A stretch of 64,000 nt of DNA, taken from Nitrospinaceae bacterium (GTDB taxonomy: Bacteria > Nitrospinota > Nitrospinia > Nitrospinales > VA-1). Below the pieces are notes generated by a model. The model had not been told where the DNA came from, did no database searches, and was given only the letters and a program-made list of their open reading frames with translations. The stretch is from assembly GCA_021604505.1 (NCBI GenBank), contig BQJC01000002.1, positions 372,001-436,000 on the forward strand, read 5' to 3'. The translations under genes were made by a program, and so were the position numbers. Of this stretch, positions 37,289-46,403 are shown piece by piece (within the stretch, counting starts at the first letter, position 1; each line of letters opens with the position of its first letter).

Positions 37289-38095
37289 ATGGGAAAAGTA
37301 ATCTGTGTTGTCAATCAGAAGGGCGGGGTTGGAAAGACCACCACTGCGGTGAATCTTTCGGCCTGCCTTGCGCTCTCTGGCAAAAAGGTTCTTCTCGTCG
37401 ATGTCGACCCGCAGGCCAATGCCTCCAGCGGCCTCGGGATTAATTTGCCCAATGAGGCATCAGGGCTTTACGACCTGCTTCTGGGGGAGGCGAGCCTGGA
37501 GCAGGTGACCTACTCGACAGAAATCGAAACTCTAAAAATCATCCCTTCGTCTGTTGATCTCACGGGTGCTGAAATTGAACTGGTTTCCCATGAGGACCGG
37601 GAAAAACGTTTGAAGGCCGTCCTGCAGGGAGCGGAAGACGAGTACGAATTCATCCTGATCGATTGTCCGCCGTCGTTGGGGTTGCTCACTTTGAACGCGC
37701 TGGCCGTCTGCCATTCGGTGCTGATCCCCATGCAGTGTGAGTATTATGCGCTGCAGGGTTTGAGCCATCTTCTCAAAACCCTGAAGCTGGTCAAGCGTTC
37801 ACTCAACCCGGACCTGAAGGTGGAAGGCATCCTTTTGACCATGTACGACGGCAGAACCCTGCTAGCCGGGCAGGTGCGCGATCAGGTCAAAAAATATTTC
37901 AAGGACTACATGGTCGATACCATCATTCCCAGAAACATCCGCCTGAGTGAAGCGCCGAGTCACGGCAAGCCCGTGGTCCTTTACGCCAGCCGCTCGCGCG
38001 GGGCCGATTCCTACGTCGAGTTAGCCAAGGAAATTATTGCGCGCGCCCGAAATGACATGTTGCAAAAAGAATCCAGAGGGGAGTGCGTGGCGTGA
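37289..38095 (+). CDS. parA: Chromosome partitioning ATPase ParA (Soj)
   Basis: 268 residues. The deviant Walker A is K-G-G-V-G-K-T-T-T (11-19), followed by [10 protein letters not shown] and D-C-P-P-S-L-G. ParA ATPase gradients move ParB-parS complexes and so segregate origins. It overlaps parB and has two parS sites just upstream. Confidence 0.97.
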
Positions 38096-38961
38096 ACCGA
38101 AAAGCCCTTGGCAAGGGAATCAATGCTCTGATTCCCGACTTTGAAGTCGGCGTTCCGCAGGCCAACGGTTCAGGCCCCGGAGTGGGGGAGCTGTTGATCG
38201 ATGAGATCTCTCCGAACCGTTTGCAACCCCGAAAGTATTTCGACGACGAAAAACTCGAAGAGCTCGTCCTGTCGATTCAGGAGAACGGGGTTCTTCAGCC
38301 GGTGATTGTCCAAAAGGGCAAAAACAATACCTATGAACTGGTTGTCGGAGAGCGCCGCTGGCGGGCGAGTAAAAAAGCCGGACTCAAAAAAATCCCGGCG
38401 ATCATCCGTGAAGTCAGCGACACGGAGTCTCTGGAAATTGCCATCATTGAAAACATTCACAGACAGGACCTCAACCCCATTGAAGAGGCCGAAGCCTACT
38501 CGCGCCTGGCCAATGAATTCGGTCTGACCCAGGAGAAACTGGGCAAACGATTGGGGAAAAACCGCGCATCGATCGCCAATACCATACGGCTTCTAAAATT
38601 ACCTGAGACGGTGAAAGGCGAAATGATCGCTGGCAGGTTGTCCATGGGGCACGCTCGCGCGCTCTTGGGTTTGGAGTCGGTCAAGGACATGGAAGCCGTC
38701 AGGCAGGAAATTCTGAAGAAAAATTTGAATGTCCGCCAGACCGAAGGCCGGGTCAAGCAATTTCGGGCGGTTCCTGCTGAACCGTCACCGTCCAGGAAGA
38801 AAAATGTTTTCCTGAAAAATCTCGAAACGGAACTGGAGCGTAAGCTGGGAACCAAAGTAGAAATAACCCCGCGCCAGAAAGGCGGCAAGGTGGTCATTAC
38901 TTATTATTCAAACGACGATCTCGAAAGAATCCGTGGCATGATCGTGAAAAAAATCAATTAA
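38092..38961 (+). CDS. parB: Chromosome partitioning protein ParB (Spo0J)
   Basis: 289 residues from the GTG at 38092 ([14 protein letters not shown], a standard ParB start), which overlaps the parA stop as GTGA and is ~9 bases from AGAGGGG. A GTG at 38083 is an alternative. The CTPase domain shows L-Q-P-R-K-Y-F-D and G-E-R-R-W-R-A, then an [10 protein letters not shown] motif and an HTH ([15 protein letters not shown]). It binds parS. Confidence 0.97.
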
Positions 38962-38999: not shown

Positions 39000-39398
39000 A
39001 TGGCGCAAAAAAAAGACGACGCGCATCTAAAAGCCTATATGGGCGAAGACGCAATTTTTAACGGGTCTCTGACGTTCGAGGGGACCGTTCGCATAGATGG
39101 CCGGTTCGAAGGCCAGGTGGTGACGGAAGACACGCTTATCGTTGGGGAAGCCGGAAAGATCATCGCCGATATCAATGCCGGTACGGTGGTCTGTAAGGGG
39201 AGGGTCGAAGGCAATATCGTCGCCAGCAAGAAAGTTGAACTTCATTCGACCAGCCAGGTCGTGGGGACGGTGAAAACACCTTCTTTGTATGTTGAAGTGG
39301 GTGGGGTTTTAGACGGTCAATGCGATATGTCCGGCCATGAAAATAAAATCATCGAATTCAGAAAAAACGAAGAAACCGGAACGGGAGGTCCGGGTTGA
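39000..39398 (+). CDS. Bactofilin (polymer-forming cytoskeletal protein)
   Basis: 132 residues with GGAGG nine bases upstream. The bactofilin core repeats a strand pattern with G-S-L-T-F-E-G-T-V-R-I-D-G-R-F-E-G and later G-R-V-E-G-N-I. It polymerises without nucleotide to form scaffolds. It follows parB by 38 bases. In some bacteria bactofilins organise ParABS or cell-wall enzymes, so co-location is suggestive. Confidence 0.9.
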   Translation: MAQKKDDAHLKAYMGEDAIFNGSLTFEGTVRIDGRFEGQVVTEDTLIVGEAGKIIADINAGTVVCKGRVEGNIVASKKVELHSTSQVVGTVKTPSLYVEVGGVLDGQCDMSGHENKIIEFRKNEETGTGGPG

Positions 39399-40297: not shown

Positions 40298-41614
40298 ATG
40301 GCGATCATTTCCATCATCGGCCCGAAGGGCGGGATTGGAAAGACGACCTTATCCATCAACACCGCCGCGGCTCTGACGCGGGCGTTGAACCTGAAGGGTT
40401 CGAAAAACAGAGTCTGCCTGGTGGATCTCGATTTGCGCCTGCCCACCATTTCCAGCATCCTGGACAGCCATCCGCCTAAAACCTTTTACGATCTTTTTGA
40501 AACCTTTGCCAACAAAACCTACCAGGTCGATATCCTGGAGACCCTGTATCGAATCACCAGCACGTTTAAAAGCTATCTGGCAGGGGATCTGCCCGCAAAC
40601 AGCCGTCAACTTGCAAAAAGCCTGGCCGTGTATCAATCCATCAACACCAGCCTGTTTCATTTTTCAAATTTTAGATTCGGCAACGCAATGTACGAATTAT
40701 TTCTGGAACGGGGGGAGGTGGAGGGAACGGCGCAGTTGAAAACCCTGGCTCCGATTTTAAAGAAAGTGGACAGCGCCGCGTTTAAAGCCCATATAGGCGA
40801 ATTACAAAAAAACTCCCGGGCGTTGGTGGAAGATTACATCAACTATATCGAAGAGTACGGGTTTTCGATCATCGGCGGCGAAGTGCCGATCATGGGCAAA
40901 AAAAACCATAGAAAACGTATCAACGAGCCGGCCTTTCTGGCACTGCTTCTGCAATTTTTGAACGAAGTGTACGCAAAATTTGATCATGTCATTTTGGACA
41001 CGCCGGCGGGCGGCGTGAGCCATATCTCGTCACTCATGAATTCCATCGACCAGGTGATTTTAGTGTTTGACATGAGCAACACCATTGCGGTCAACGGCAG
41101 TCTGGACGCACTCCACACCTTCATCGACTACTATGAGGAGTTTTTTGATGAATTCAAGCAGGGCCGTTTGACGGGTCTGGACAAGGTGTACGTCAACCGC
41201 CTGATCGCCGCAAAAGGCCACCAGGCGATTGAGGACGCGCTTCGCAATAAAAAATTAGGTATTTTTTTCAACCGCTGTCAGGGCAACGATGAAATTACGG
41301 ATTGCCTCAATCGTTTGCGGGAGTATCTCGATACGCTGGATAAATATGAAGAATATCAACACCGCATTTGTATTGTGGGAATGATGCCGCAACATAGGAT
41401 CATTCATATCACGAACAACCGGGGGGCTTTGTTTTACGATAAGGACAGGACGCTGCGGGGACGGATGGATCTGGTCGCGCAAAGCGCTTTGTCGGAAAAC
41501 ACATGCAGCCCGGCACTGTCCTCGTCCAATGAAGAGATTGTGCACTACCTTCAGGGCAAAGGGAAAACCGGATTGGCGGCAAAAATCAGCCGCCTGGCCG
41601 CCAGTTTCAGCTGA
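40298..41614 (+). CDS. Large MinD/ParA-like ATPase of the bactofilin cluster
   Basis: 438 residues, longer than MinD (~270). The deviant Walker A K-G-G-I-G-K-T-T (10-17), L-V-D-L-D-L-R-L-P and a later I-L-D-T-P-A-G-G-V-S-H give the ParA/MinD fold, with an inserted helical region (~60-210) between the core motifs. It starts directly after the rsmI stop and precedes a second bactofilin. It could position the bactofilin or its wall enzyme. Family specificity is not clear. Confidence 0.75.
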   Translation: MAIISIIGPKGGIGKTTLSINTAAALTRALNLKGSKNRVCLVDLDLRLPTISSILDSHPPKTFYDLFETFANKTYQVDILETLYRITSTFKSYLAGDLPANSRQLAKSLAVYQSINTSLFHFSNFRFGNAMYELFLERGEVEGTAQLKTLAPILKKVDSAAFKAHIGELQKNSRALVEDYINYIEEYGFSIIGGEVPIMGKKNHRKRINEPAFLALLLQFLNEVYAKFDHVILDTPAGGVSHISSLMNSIDQVILVFDMSNTIAVNGSLDALHTFIDYYEEFFDEFKQGRLTGLDKVYVNRLIAAKGHQAIEDALRNKKLGIFFNRCQGNDEITDCLNRLREYLDTLDKYEEYQHRICIVGMMPQHRIIHITNNRGALFYDKDRTLRGRMDLVAQSALSENTCSPALSSSNEEIVHYLQGKGKTGLAAKISRLAASFS

Positions 41615-41621
41615 TCCGCCA

Positions 41622-42182
41622 ATGGGACATCCTAAATTAAATATTTTATCCCCGGAAGAATTTGCGCTTTTGCAAAGCAACGATCCTGAAGGAGCCTATG
41701 ATAAGGAAACCCGGGAGGCTTTATACCAGATCATACAGAAGCTGGGCGATCAGGGCAGAAAGTGCTCGCGGCCGGAAAAGAAGATACTCAAACAATTCGC
41801 CGGCGCCAACTTCGGGATTCTCATCAAACAGGGAACTCAGTCGGAAGGAAAAATTCTTCATCCGGGAGCGGTGATGGTGGAAGGTCTGTTTGAGGGCGAG
41901 ATCCTCATCAACGACACCTTGACCGTTGAACCCTCGGGTGAGGTGATTGCTAAAATAACCGCCGCCAGGGTGATCTGCAGAGGACGCATTGACGGGGAGA
42001 TTCAAGCAACGAACCAGGTTTGGATTTGCAACGGGGCAACGTTATACGGGAACATCGTCACACCCTCGATGCATGTCGAAGAGGGAGCTTTTTTTGAAGG
42101 CCAGTGCTCCATGCCCAGCCAACCCGGAGAAGTCGCCATTCATGAAAAACCCCGGAAGAAAACGTTTCTCAACGCAGGATGA
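41622..42182 (+). CDS. Bactofilin with an N-terminal helical module
   Basis: 186 residues from the ATG at 41622; the longer frame to 41529 lies inside the ATPase gene. Residues ~14-67 form a helical module (P-E-G-A-Y-D-K-E-T-R-E-A-L-Y), followed by a bactofilin core with G-L-F-E-G-E-I-L-I-N and G-R-I-D-G-E-I. The same module is on the next gene's L,D-transpeptidase. It probably polymerises and uses the module to dock partners. Confidence 0.85.
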   Translation: MGHPKLNILSPEEFALLQSNDPEGAYDKETREALYQIIQKLGDQGRKCSRPEKKILKQFAGANFGILIKQGTQSEGKILHPGAVMVEGLFEGEILINDTLTVEPSGEVIAKITAARVICRGRIDGEIQATNQVWICNGATLYGNIVTPSMHVEEGAFFEGQCSMPSQPGEVAIHEKPRKKTFLNAG

Positions 42183-42288
42183 GCAGAGGCTTAACTTTAC
42201 AATAATTTACTTTGAAAACCATTGATTTTAGAGTACACTGGAGTACGCAAGCTCGTATATTTCAACCACTTAAAAGAGTTCAGCGAAA

Positions 42289-43488
42289 GTGAATTCTCCG
42301 AAAATCATCTCTTCCCCAGACTCCGGCTTTCCTGCCGAAACCGGCGACCGTCGGTTGGCGGTTCTCAACGTTCCCGATTACAATCTGATCGCCAATAAAA
42401 ACCCATATGGCAGTTACGACCGCAAAACGCGTGAAAATCTCTATTGGGTCATTGAAAAACTTCAGGTGAACCCCAATCGCTTGACCCCCCTCGAACGCCG
42501 GTTGCTGGAAAAGTTTGGCAACGCCAACTTCCGTGCGTTGGAGGCCAAAGAAAAAAAGGTGAAGTTCGAGGTTGCCTGGTACCGGTTGTCCCTCGGGGTT
42601 AAGCGGTCGGTGAAATTGACAGCGTTGTCTCTCTTTATTCTGACGGTGACCACCTGGATGGTCTATCAGTTTGTGGTGGATTCCAAGACTCAGAGAGAAA
42701 TCGACATGGCCTATTATGCGGGATTGAACCAGCTGGGTTTGGTTTCCAGGGAAGATTTTGAACACATCCGCAACGACCTGACGGCCACCTCGCTTAAACT
42801 GGCGGAAACCCGCAAAAACAACATCGAACTCAATCGAATGGTTGAGCAGATGATCCTCAACAATCAGGTCACGGAAAATTTTAAATATATTTTGAAACAA
42901 ATCTACCTCGATCCCAAGACAAAATATGTTAAAAAGAGGGCGCAGGTGGCGTTGCATTTTAATGGCCGGGAAATTGCGAGCTACAAAACCGATCCCGACC
43001 TCTGGTATATCGTCGGAATCATTGAAACCGGGAAAATCCGCGTGTATTACGAAAACGAGGAGATTCTCGAAATCGATGCGATTTTTGGCCGCACAGGGGA
43101 AGAAACGCCAATCGGTGAATATGGCATCGTGAACAAGGTCTTCAAGCCCACCTGGTATAAAAAGGAAACCGTTAAAGGAAACACCCGTGTCCGCGCCATT
43201 CCCTTTGGGCATAAGGATCACGACATTGGCCGCTGGTGGATGGGGCTGAAAAAAGTCGGAGATCCGGTTCCCGGGAGTTACGGGATTCATGGGGTCAATA
43301 TCCAAAAGGTAAACGAATTTTATAAAAAGAATTTCGACTGGCGAAGCGGCAGTGCAGGGTGTCCCAATATCCAGGGCTGGTATTTGCAATTTCTTGCGAA
43401 GGTGGTGCCTGTAGGAGCCCATGTCACTATTGTTCAAAAGGACAAATGGAAGTCGGATACCAGAACGCTGCCTCCCTCCGCCGCATAA
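42289..43488 (+). CDS. Membrane-anchored L,D-transpeptidase (YkuD)
   Basis: 399 residues, GTG start. Residues ~31-84 repeat the module found on the upstream bactofilin (P-Y-G-S-Y-D-R-K-T-R-E-N-L-Y). A single TM segment at ~108-130 places this module in the cytoplasm and the enzyme in the periplasm. The C-terminal YkuD domain has G-I-H-G-V-N and S-A-G-C-P-N-I, with the catalytic Cys and His present. It forms 3-3 peptidoglycan cross-links or attaches proteins. The topology fits a bactofilin-guided wall enzyme. Confidence 0.85.
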   Translation: MNSPKIISSPDSGFPAETGDRRLAVLNVPDYNLIANKNPYGSYDRKTRENLYWVIEKLQVNPNRLTPLERRLLEKFGNANFRALEAKEKKVKFEVAWYRLSLGVKRSVKLTALSLFILTVTTWMVYQFVVDSKTQREIDMAYYAGLNQLGLVSREDFEHIRNDLTATSLKLAETRKNNIELNRMVEQMILNNQVTENFKYILKQIYLDPKTKYVKKRAQVALHFNGREIASYKTDPDLWYIVGIIETGKIRVYYENEEILEIDAIFGRTGEETPIGEYGIVNKVFKPTWYKKETVKGNTRVRAIPFGHKDHDIGRWWMGLKKVGDPVPGSYGIHGVNIQKVNEFYKKNFDWRSGSAGCPNIQGWYLQFLAKVVPVGAHVTIVQKDKWKSDTRTLPPSAA

Positions 43489-45150: not shown

Positions 45151-45191
45151 GCGTAATGCAAGTTTCCAATTCACCTATCAAGGTCATCCCC

Positions 45192-46403
45192 ATGAACAAA
45201 GACCAGATCGCCATTTACTTAAACGAACACCTGGAGTTTTTTAATGATTACCCCGAGCTCCTCACCAAGATACAATCCATCACCATTGAAGAACTGCCTC
45301 TGGAGCCTCTGGGAACGCTGAGTCTGGCGGATAGAATCATCAAACGCGCGCATGCGGATAAGGAGCACCTGAAGAGTAAGCTCGAATGGTTTGTGGAGAT
45401 CTCGCAAGCCAACGAAAAAATCCAGGAGCACCTCTTTGAAATCGAACGGTCAATTCTCACCAGCTCCAACTTGGAACAACTGGTGGAACAATTAAGAGAA
45501 GAAATCAGCTCGCGCTTTGCCATTCCGCACGTGCTGATTTGCCTGGTGGATGAGGGAGAGCATTTCATAGAGAGCAAATTGAAAGAAAAATACCGGGAAT
45601 CCATGAACCATGCCTTGCGGTTTGTGGACCAGCAAACCGCTACTTTGTGGTTCGAAGGCGAACAAAACCCGATTCTGAAAGGCGAAATCCAGGAAGGGTC
45701 CGAATGGTTTCAAGAGTCCGAAGGCGAGGAAGCCATTAAGTCGGAGGCTTTGATCCCCATCATCGTTCGCGATGAGGTCGCGGGAGCCATTGTCCTAGGG
45801 AGCGTGAAGCCGTTTCACTTTCATCCGGGGTTGCGCACGGATTTTCTACAGCGCATGGCGCAAAAAATGGCCATCGCCCTGGATAATATTTTTCTGATCG
45901 ACCGCCTGCGTCGTCATTCGGTGGTCGACAAACAAACCGGGTTGCACAACCGGGCCTACCTCGAACCGGTTTTGCACCGGGAGTTCGACCTGGCCAAGCG
46001 CAGGAAGAAAAGTTTGTCCTGTATAAAATTGCAGATTGACTATTTCAACGATCTTCTGGATACTTGTGGAGAGGCGGCCGGGGAAGCCGTTCTCGAAGCC
46101 ATCGGAAAAATCCTGACCAACAATTGCCGCTCCTGCGACATTTTAATTCGCACGGACATCGGTGAGTTTTTGGTTCTATTGCCGGAAATCGACCCGCAGG
46201 GGGCCTCTCTGGTCGCGGAAAGGGTTCGAAACGCGTTGGGAGAGCTCGAACTCAAGGAATTTCAAGGCTTTGAGACATTAAAGGTGAATCTGGGGATAGC
46301 CACCTATCCCGCAACTTCGATCGAGACGCCCGAGGATTTATTGTATGCGGTGTCGAAAGATCTGACTGAAGAAAGCAAATTGACCGAGAAACGAGCCGTA
46401 TGA
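45192..46403 (+). CDS. DUF484-GGDEF-like protein with degenerate active site
   Basis: 403 residues from the ATG at 45192. The N-terminal third is a DUF484-type GAF domain with an initial coiled coil. The C-terminal part has the GGDEF fold, with D-K-Q-T-G-L-H-N-R, but the catalytic motif is D-I-G-E-F instead of G-G-D-E-F. It is therefore unlikely to make c-di-GMP and may bind it or act as a structural module. It overlaps the acetyltransferase gene by ATGA. Confidence 0.8.
   Translation: MNKDQIAIYLNEHLEFFNDYPELLTKIQSITIEELPLEPLGTLSLADRIIKRAHADKEHLKSKLEWFVEISQANEKIQEHLFEIERSILTSSNLEQLVEQLREEISSRFAIPHVLICLVDEGEHFIESKLKEKYRESMNHALRFVDQQTATLWFEGEQNPILKGEIQEGSEWFQESEGEEAIKSEALIPIIVRDEVAGAIVLGSVKPFHFHPGLRTDFLQRMAQKMAIALDNIFLIDRLRRHSVVDKQTGLHNRAYLEPVLHREFDLAKRRKKSLSCIKLQIDYFNDLLDTCGEAAGEAVLEAIGKILTNNCRSCDILIRTDIGEFLVLLPEIDPQGASLVAERVRNALGELELKEFQGFETLKVNLGIATYPATSIETPEDLLYAVSKDLTEESKLTEKRAV

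Follow-up and report, generated by a model that had tools for sequence, protein, structure and literature searches.

A predicted three-helix module shared by a bactofilin and a neighbouring L,D-transpeptidase in Nitrospinota may serve as a common address tag

Recruitment of cell-wall enzymes to bactofilins through the cytoplasmic N-terminus of the client is an established principle (PMC12448750, PMC10945521). In Caulobacter crescentus, a short peptide formed by residues 1-13 of PbpC binds the bactofilin core of BacA (PMC12448750), while in Hyphomonas and Rhodospirillum a beta-hairpin in the cytoplasmic tail of the M23 endopeptidase LmdC docks on BacA (PMC10945521). The bactofilin gene bacM of Myxococcus xanthus lies directly after parAB, and bactofilins there organise other machines, as with ParABS/PadC (PMC5703909). 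In the parts available to us of the literature mentioning bactofilins and D-transpeptidases, no L,D-transpeptidase client of bactofilins is described, and our literature search found no paper on Nitrospinota with bactofilins as its subject. Nitrospinota are marine and groundwater bacteria and include marine nitrite oxidisers.

We analysed a 64,000-nucleotide stretch of a Nitrospinaceae genome (contig BQJC01000002.1, positions 372,001 to 436,000; hereafter the window), in which all features named below lie on the forward strand. The locus starts with a Soj-type ParA chromosome partition ATPase (37289-38095; PF13614, E=5.5e-67). It is followed by an ORF named ParB from its sequence (38083-38961), which adjoins ParA and bactofilin-1 in relatives, and by bactofilin-1 itself (bac1; 39000-39398; PF04519, E=8.3e-28), a plain bactofilin without the module described here. 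As with bacM of M. xanthus, bac1 follows parAB. Unlike the M. xanthus bactofilins, which have short unstructured flanks, this locus has a cassette with a module predicted to be folded added after rsmI, comprising a MinD/ParA-like ATPase, a second bactofilin (bactofilin-2, bac2) and an L,D-transpeptidase (LDT). The usual gene order in relatives is ParA, ParB, bactofilin-1, RsmI, the three-gene cassette and argH, continuing with GGDEF, GNAT and flg genes on contigs long enough to show them. In two outgroup families of the class, the series ParA-ParB-bactofilin-1-RsmI is present but the cassette is missing; in one genome (G037) and some others, the cassette keeps its company with RsmI and argH, with ParAB and bac1 found at another site. 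The gene after argH, also conserved in the locus, encodes a GGDEF diguanylate cyclase with a DUF484/GAF region (45156-46403 in the window). Separately, most relatives contain a bactofilin-like domain within long ORFs of about 670-770 aa (for example G000:C1:1580104-1580409), a further large bactofilin-domain protein. One genome (G052) contains two differing copies of the whole cassette (L135, L134) on separate contigs, possibly reflecting a mixed assembly.

The original prediction had placed a MinD-like ATPase just before the second bactofilin, and such a gene does lie directly upstream (40298-41614; 438 aa; PF13614, E=1.1e-11). Its Walker A sequence, GPKGGIGKTT, matches the deviant motif KGGxGK[ST]T, and across 37 orthologues KGG and GKTT hardly vary. 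Like MinD/ParA-type positioning ATPases, it is encoded together with its presumed cargo. Unlike MinD proper, it falls far below the cutoff of the MinD equivalog TIGR01968 (35.2 bits vs 212.9), and both cargo and positioning role are putative. In most orthologues, the last 16 residues (41564-41611 in the window) have a positive charge and a weakly amphipathic character (median hydrophobic moment 0.41; background median 0.24), and could possibly form a MinD-like membrane anchor.

Bactofilin-2 (41622-42182; 186 aa) consists of the N-terminal module and a bactofilin polymerisation core (residues 67-162; 41820-42107). It passes the PF04519 cutoff comfortably (81.1 bits vs 27.9, E=7.5e-23), and the core of its AlphaFold2 model matches BacA (2n3d) in Foldseek with a target TM score of 0.87 (E=7e-4), in keeping with the right-handed beta-helix fold of bactofilins. 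Typical bactofilins have short unstructured flanks, whereas the N-terminal 65 residues of bactofilin-2 are confidently predicted as a three-helix domain; because short flanks are typical and not defining, we regard the protein as a variant architecture and see no ground for exclusion in its long flank. In a group of relatives (genus g14 and others; L019, L024, L025, L029-L032), bac2 C-termini have endings such as PIKNRISQLFRAG, which resemble an amphipathic membrane-targeting tail; the tail of bac2 in the window differs. The interval from bac2 to the LDT gene contains promoter-like hexamers (TTGAAA-16-TACACT; 42212-42239), which are weak and occur at chance density, and an upstream CAATAATTTACTTTGAAAA stretch that G004 has too.

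The LDT is a bitopic protein of 399 aa with a GTG start (42289-43488). Its YkuD catalytic domain spans residues 245-381 (43021-43431; PF03734, E=2.4e-11, 44.8 bits vs cutoff 23.4). The catalytic motif GIHGVN...GSAGCPN contains the conserved His and Cys of the YkuD family (HG ... SxGC), and both H334 (43288-43290) and C358 (43360-43362) are invariant across 45 orthologues; the catalytic pair is intact, and L,D-transpeptidase activity is putative. The GC pair is followed by Asn in this LDT, a position usually occupied by Arg in the family. The module had been said to precede the transmembrane segment, and the only predicted segment of this kind indeed lies after it, at residues 112-130 (42622-42678), where Kyte-Doolittle hydropathy along the protein peaks, at 1.76 over 19 residues. 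The segment also follows a stretch rich in Lys (KEKKVK, VKRSVK), which agrees with a topology in which the N-terminus is inside; judged from segment position and flanking charge, the module is probably cytoplasmic.

An earlier reading of the window had noted a gap-free match of 20 identities in 54 positions between bactofilin residues 14-67 and LDT residues 31-84. The recount gave exactly this figure, and both ORFs were found where they had been placed, with PF04519 and PF03734 confirming their identities. In BLASTP, the match extends over residues 2-67 of bactofilin-2 and 19-84 of the LDT without gaps (23/66 identical, 43/66 positive, E=3e-13), and the gap-free alignment also holds across 30 representative modules. 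This similarity is far above chance. From BLASTP, profile and AlphaFold2 data we delimit the module at residues 3-67 of bactofilin-2 (41628-41822) and 19-84 of the LDT (42343-42540). A query with the module against the whole 3.64 Mb genome hit two places only, bactofilin-2 and the LDT (E=1.5e-35 and 4.0e-8), and a module profile again returned these two as the sole carrier pair. No credible match to the module was found in Pfam, in NCBIfam (searched with full proteins) or among PDB sequences, and its fold had no match among solved or viral structures in the Foldseek PDB and viral libraries. A hit of one module member to Phage_tail_C (PF24243; E=3.9e-5) was dismissed as chance, since the best score of 23.3 bits lies below the curated cutoff of 23.7, covers 19 residues and involves few members.

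AlphaFold2 predicts matching folds for the two copies. In bactofilin-2 (40 homologues), helices at residues 11-19, 28-43 and 50-58 precede the beta-helix core, with pLDDT above 90 over most of module and core and block values of 90-94 at residues 11-70. The LDT module, modelled separately with 84 homologues, has helices at the corresponding positions 11-18, 28-43 and 50-59 (mean pLDDT 79; 86-91 in the helical part); as the 84-homologue alignment mixed both module sets, the models are not wholly independent of each other. The module is accordingly predicted to be a discrete folded domain of three helices on both proteins. The LDT N-terminus therefore differs in its predicted structure from the short-peptide and beta-hairpin docking parts of PbpC and LmdC.

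The module is a constant feature of both genes. Across 77 Nitrospinota genomes, each of the 45 intact LDTs and each of the 40 second bactofilins that were found carries it, so the relatives do not lack it on either gene, an outcome that would have spoken against the original prediction. Strong matches are confined to LDT and bac2 genes, and to the four families in the order of the window; profile searches of these genomes gave no hit with a meaningful E-value in any other protein or in other families of the class. A pattern search with the LDT, which reaches close relatives only and is the sole basis for the absence outside Nitrospinota, gave 13 related loci, all of them Nitrospinota. Ten positions of the LDT module are invariant (P39, G41, Y43, D44, T47, R48, L51, K57, L58, E69), and the polar and charged consensus DPxGxYDRxTREnLY is strongly conserved. 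Overall, this copy and the catalytic domain are conserved to a similar degree (mean pairwise identities of 0.63 and 0.68); bac2 evolves faster, module and core alike. In a tree of modules, LDT and bac2 copies were reciprocally monophyletic without exception (UFBoot 98), and so derive from one old duplication before the order radiated, with no later exchange. The two copies diverged early and share about 39% identity.

Gene losses offer a view of what each copy does without the other. With argH as anchor, 56 loci including the window were resolved, counting only contiguous intervals or, in G004, a visible junction; many of the genomes are incomplete assemblies. The full cassette is present at 36 loci (in G067 the ATPase would fall off the contig). 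ATPase and LDT occur without bac2 at nine (G002, G004, G016, G020, G023, G027, G029, G035, G060), bac2 without ATPase and LDT at four from two lineages (G005, G013, G014, G018), and all three genes are missing from seven (G010, G011, G017, G026, G031, G061, G068). The losses of bac2 fall at four places on the LDT tree, namely G002/G004, genus g7, G027 and G060; a search of the 500-bp gap in G060 for a decayed bac2 found no remnant. At the resolved loci, ATPase and intact LDT never occur apart, and they were lost together several times independently. Debris of the LDT without the module persists in G010 and G026, and G010 also retains a scrap of the ATPase N-terminus. Broken or truncated LDT remnants without the module are seen at L099:3250-4200 and L098:6640-7060, where the MinD-like ATPase is lost from the genome. 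Every LDT (n=9) and every bac2 (n=4) that is the only module carrier retains its module. The LDT module hence has a job without bac2, which cannot be its sole partner, and the bac2 module has one without LDT or ATPase; where the ATPase is missing, it cannot be the partner of bac2. Bac1 is present in nearly all module-bearing genomes, the exceptions (such as G041, G045, G049) being incomplete assemblies, but it also occurs in outgroups without the cassette, so its presence says little about partnership.

Evolutionary rates gave a mixed picture. For the LDT of genus g7, where bac2 is lost, the ratio of module to catalytic-domain rate is about twice that elsewhere (bootstrap median 2.08, 5-95% 1.35-2.87), and the module is 1.5 times faster relative to the TM/stalk region. 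In G002/G004, which lost bac2 too, there is no acceleration (ratio 0.52). These values suggest partial relaxation of the LDT module after bac2 loss in one lineage only, at small n. Rate ratios of the bac2 module already span 0.5 to 2.2 in ordinary clades, so that a change after LDT loss would hardly stand out. In G005/G013, which lost the LDT, the bac2 module is not decaying (module identity 0.86 vs core 0.76). A mirror-tree analysis detected no co-evolution of bac2 and LDT modules beyond phylogeny (partial r -0.01, only 36 genomes), and module pairs from the same genome were no more alike than others (0.382 vs 0.390 identity).

The original prediction proposed that the module is a docking domain recruiting the wall enzyme to bactofilin. 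A real, conserved module with a predicted fold, carried by adjacent genes, stands behind this proposal, and the probable cytoplasmic location of the LDT copy agrees with recruitment; bac2 as the exclusive dock of the LDT does not agree with the 13 single-carrier loci, and recruitment finds no echo in co-evolution of the two modules. In its strict form, in which docking the LDT on bac2 is the module's only job, the proposal draws on gene adjacency, the common module and a positive association of bac2 with LDT (36 loci with both, 9 with LDT only, 4 with bac2 only, 7 with neither; Fisher p=0.008, phylogeny ignored). Retention of the module by single carriers in several lineages, with no decay in G002/G004 or G005/G013, makes it very improbable. 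Gene losses and missing co-evolution together render exclusive docking on bactofilin-2 unlikely, and a shared address tag that works through a common third partner or through homotypic contacts fits better. Both shared-partner and homotypic models predict a module retained in either single-carrier state; it is this retention on a membrane-bound wall enzyme and a cytoskeletal polymer, each after loss of the other, that leads to the address-tag reading. From sequence comparison and structure models, we hold it with moderate confidence as the best overall explanation.

Two main variants of the address tag can be distinguished. The module may self-associate, so that LDT and bac2 bind each other directly and either one alone still self-associates. 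This is the simplest reading of one domain on two neighbours, it anticipates retention by single carriers, and the faster LDT module of genus g7 is in its favour; the unaccelerated G002/G004, the lack of co-evolution or excess same-genome identity, and the early divergence of copies that homotypic partners would be expected to keep closer leave it possible but unlikely. Alternatively, the module may be a binding surface for the MinD-like ATPase, comparable to the cargo adaptors of ParA/MinD ATPases, with bac2 as a second cargo. The strict joint presence and absence of ATPase and LDT, their place in one gene cluster, the intact Walker A and the charged, weakly amphipathic C-terminus argue for this variant, but four genomes without ATPase keep the bac2 module and joint loss may only reflect co-deletion of neighbours or a common pathway, and we consider it rather unlikely. 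Outside the address-tag reading, the module could act at the membrane surface or in regulation (folding, stability, ligand sensing) instead of in protein docking, and its double occurrence could be a relic of tandem duplication. Reciprocal monophyly would fit an old duplication without ongoing interaction, yet the strongly conserved polar and charged positions of the LDT copy, and the persistence of the module side by side on two unrelated proteins throughout an order, make this improbable.

Under the preferred address-tag reading, the module would be a cytoplasmic protein-interaction domain of about 62 residues that a single duplication, before the order radiated, placed at the N-termini of a bitopic LDT and of the neighbouring polymer-forming bactofilin. 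Both copies would most likely bind the same structure, be it a third partner or, homotypically, each other or themselves, so that LDT and bactofilin polymer would meet at one site beneath the inner membrane. The co-inherited MinD-like ATPase would probably join them there, with a putative part in positioning. On gene content, candidate third partners are the ATPase, which always accompanies the LDT, and bactofilin-1; the ligand of the module could instead be a membrane lipid, a nucleotide or a protein encoded elsewhere. A fuller picture, in which bactofilin and bitopic LDT co-assemble through one duplicated cytoplasmic domain and are positioned by a dedicated MinD-like ATPase so that 3-3 cross-links are made in a defined cell zone, is tentative and, taken as a whole, unlikely.

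Compared with known clients, a functional analogy to PbpC and LmdC docking is possible. The LDT resembles PbpC in being a bitopic wall enzyme with a probably cytoplasmic N-terminus, recruitment being proposed here by analogy, and resembles LmdC, which docks by its cytoplasmic N-terminal part, in that the wall enzyme gene adjoins a bactofilin gene. Unlike PbpC, the LDT has a predicted three-helix domain that a bactofilin also carries; LmdC, by contrast, is a hydrolase for which no domain shared with its bactofilin is described (PMC10945521). The Nitrospinota pair thus differs in enzyme class, in the predicted fold of the presumed docking region and in the presence of the module on the scaffold as well.

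Few cases are known of how wall enzymes reach bactofilins. If scaffold and enzyme share a recruitment module, this would be a simple and transplantable recruitment device, and, if true, cytoskeleton and wall would be coupled by a scaffold and an enzyme bearing the same plug. The natural gene losses in this order make the partner question directly testable, and the locus provides a first lead on the cell-shape machinery of Nitrospinota.
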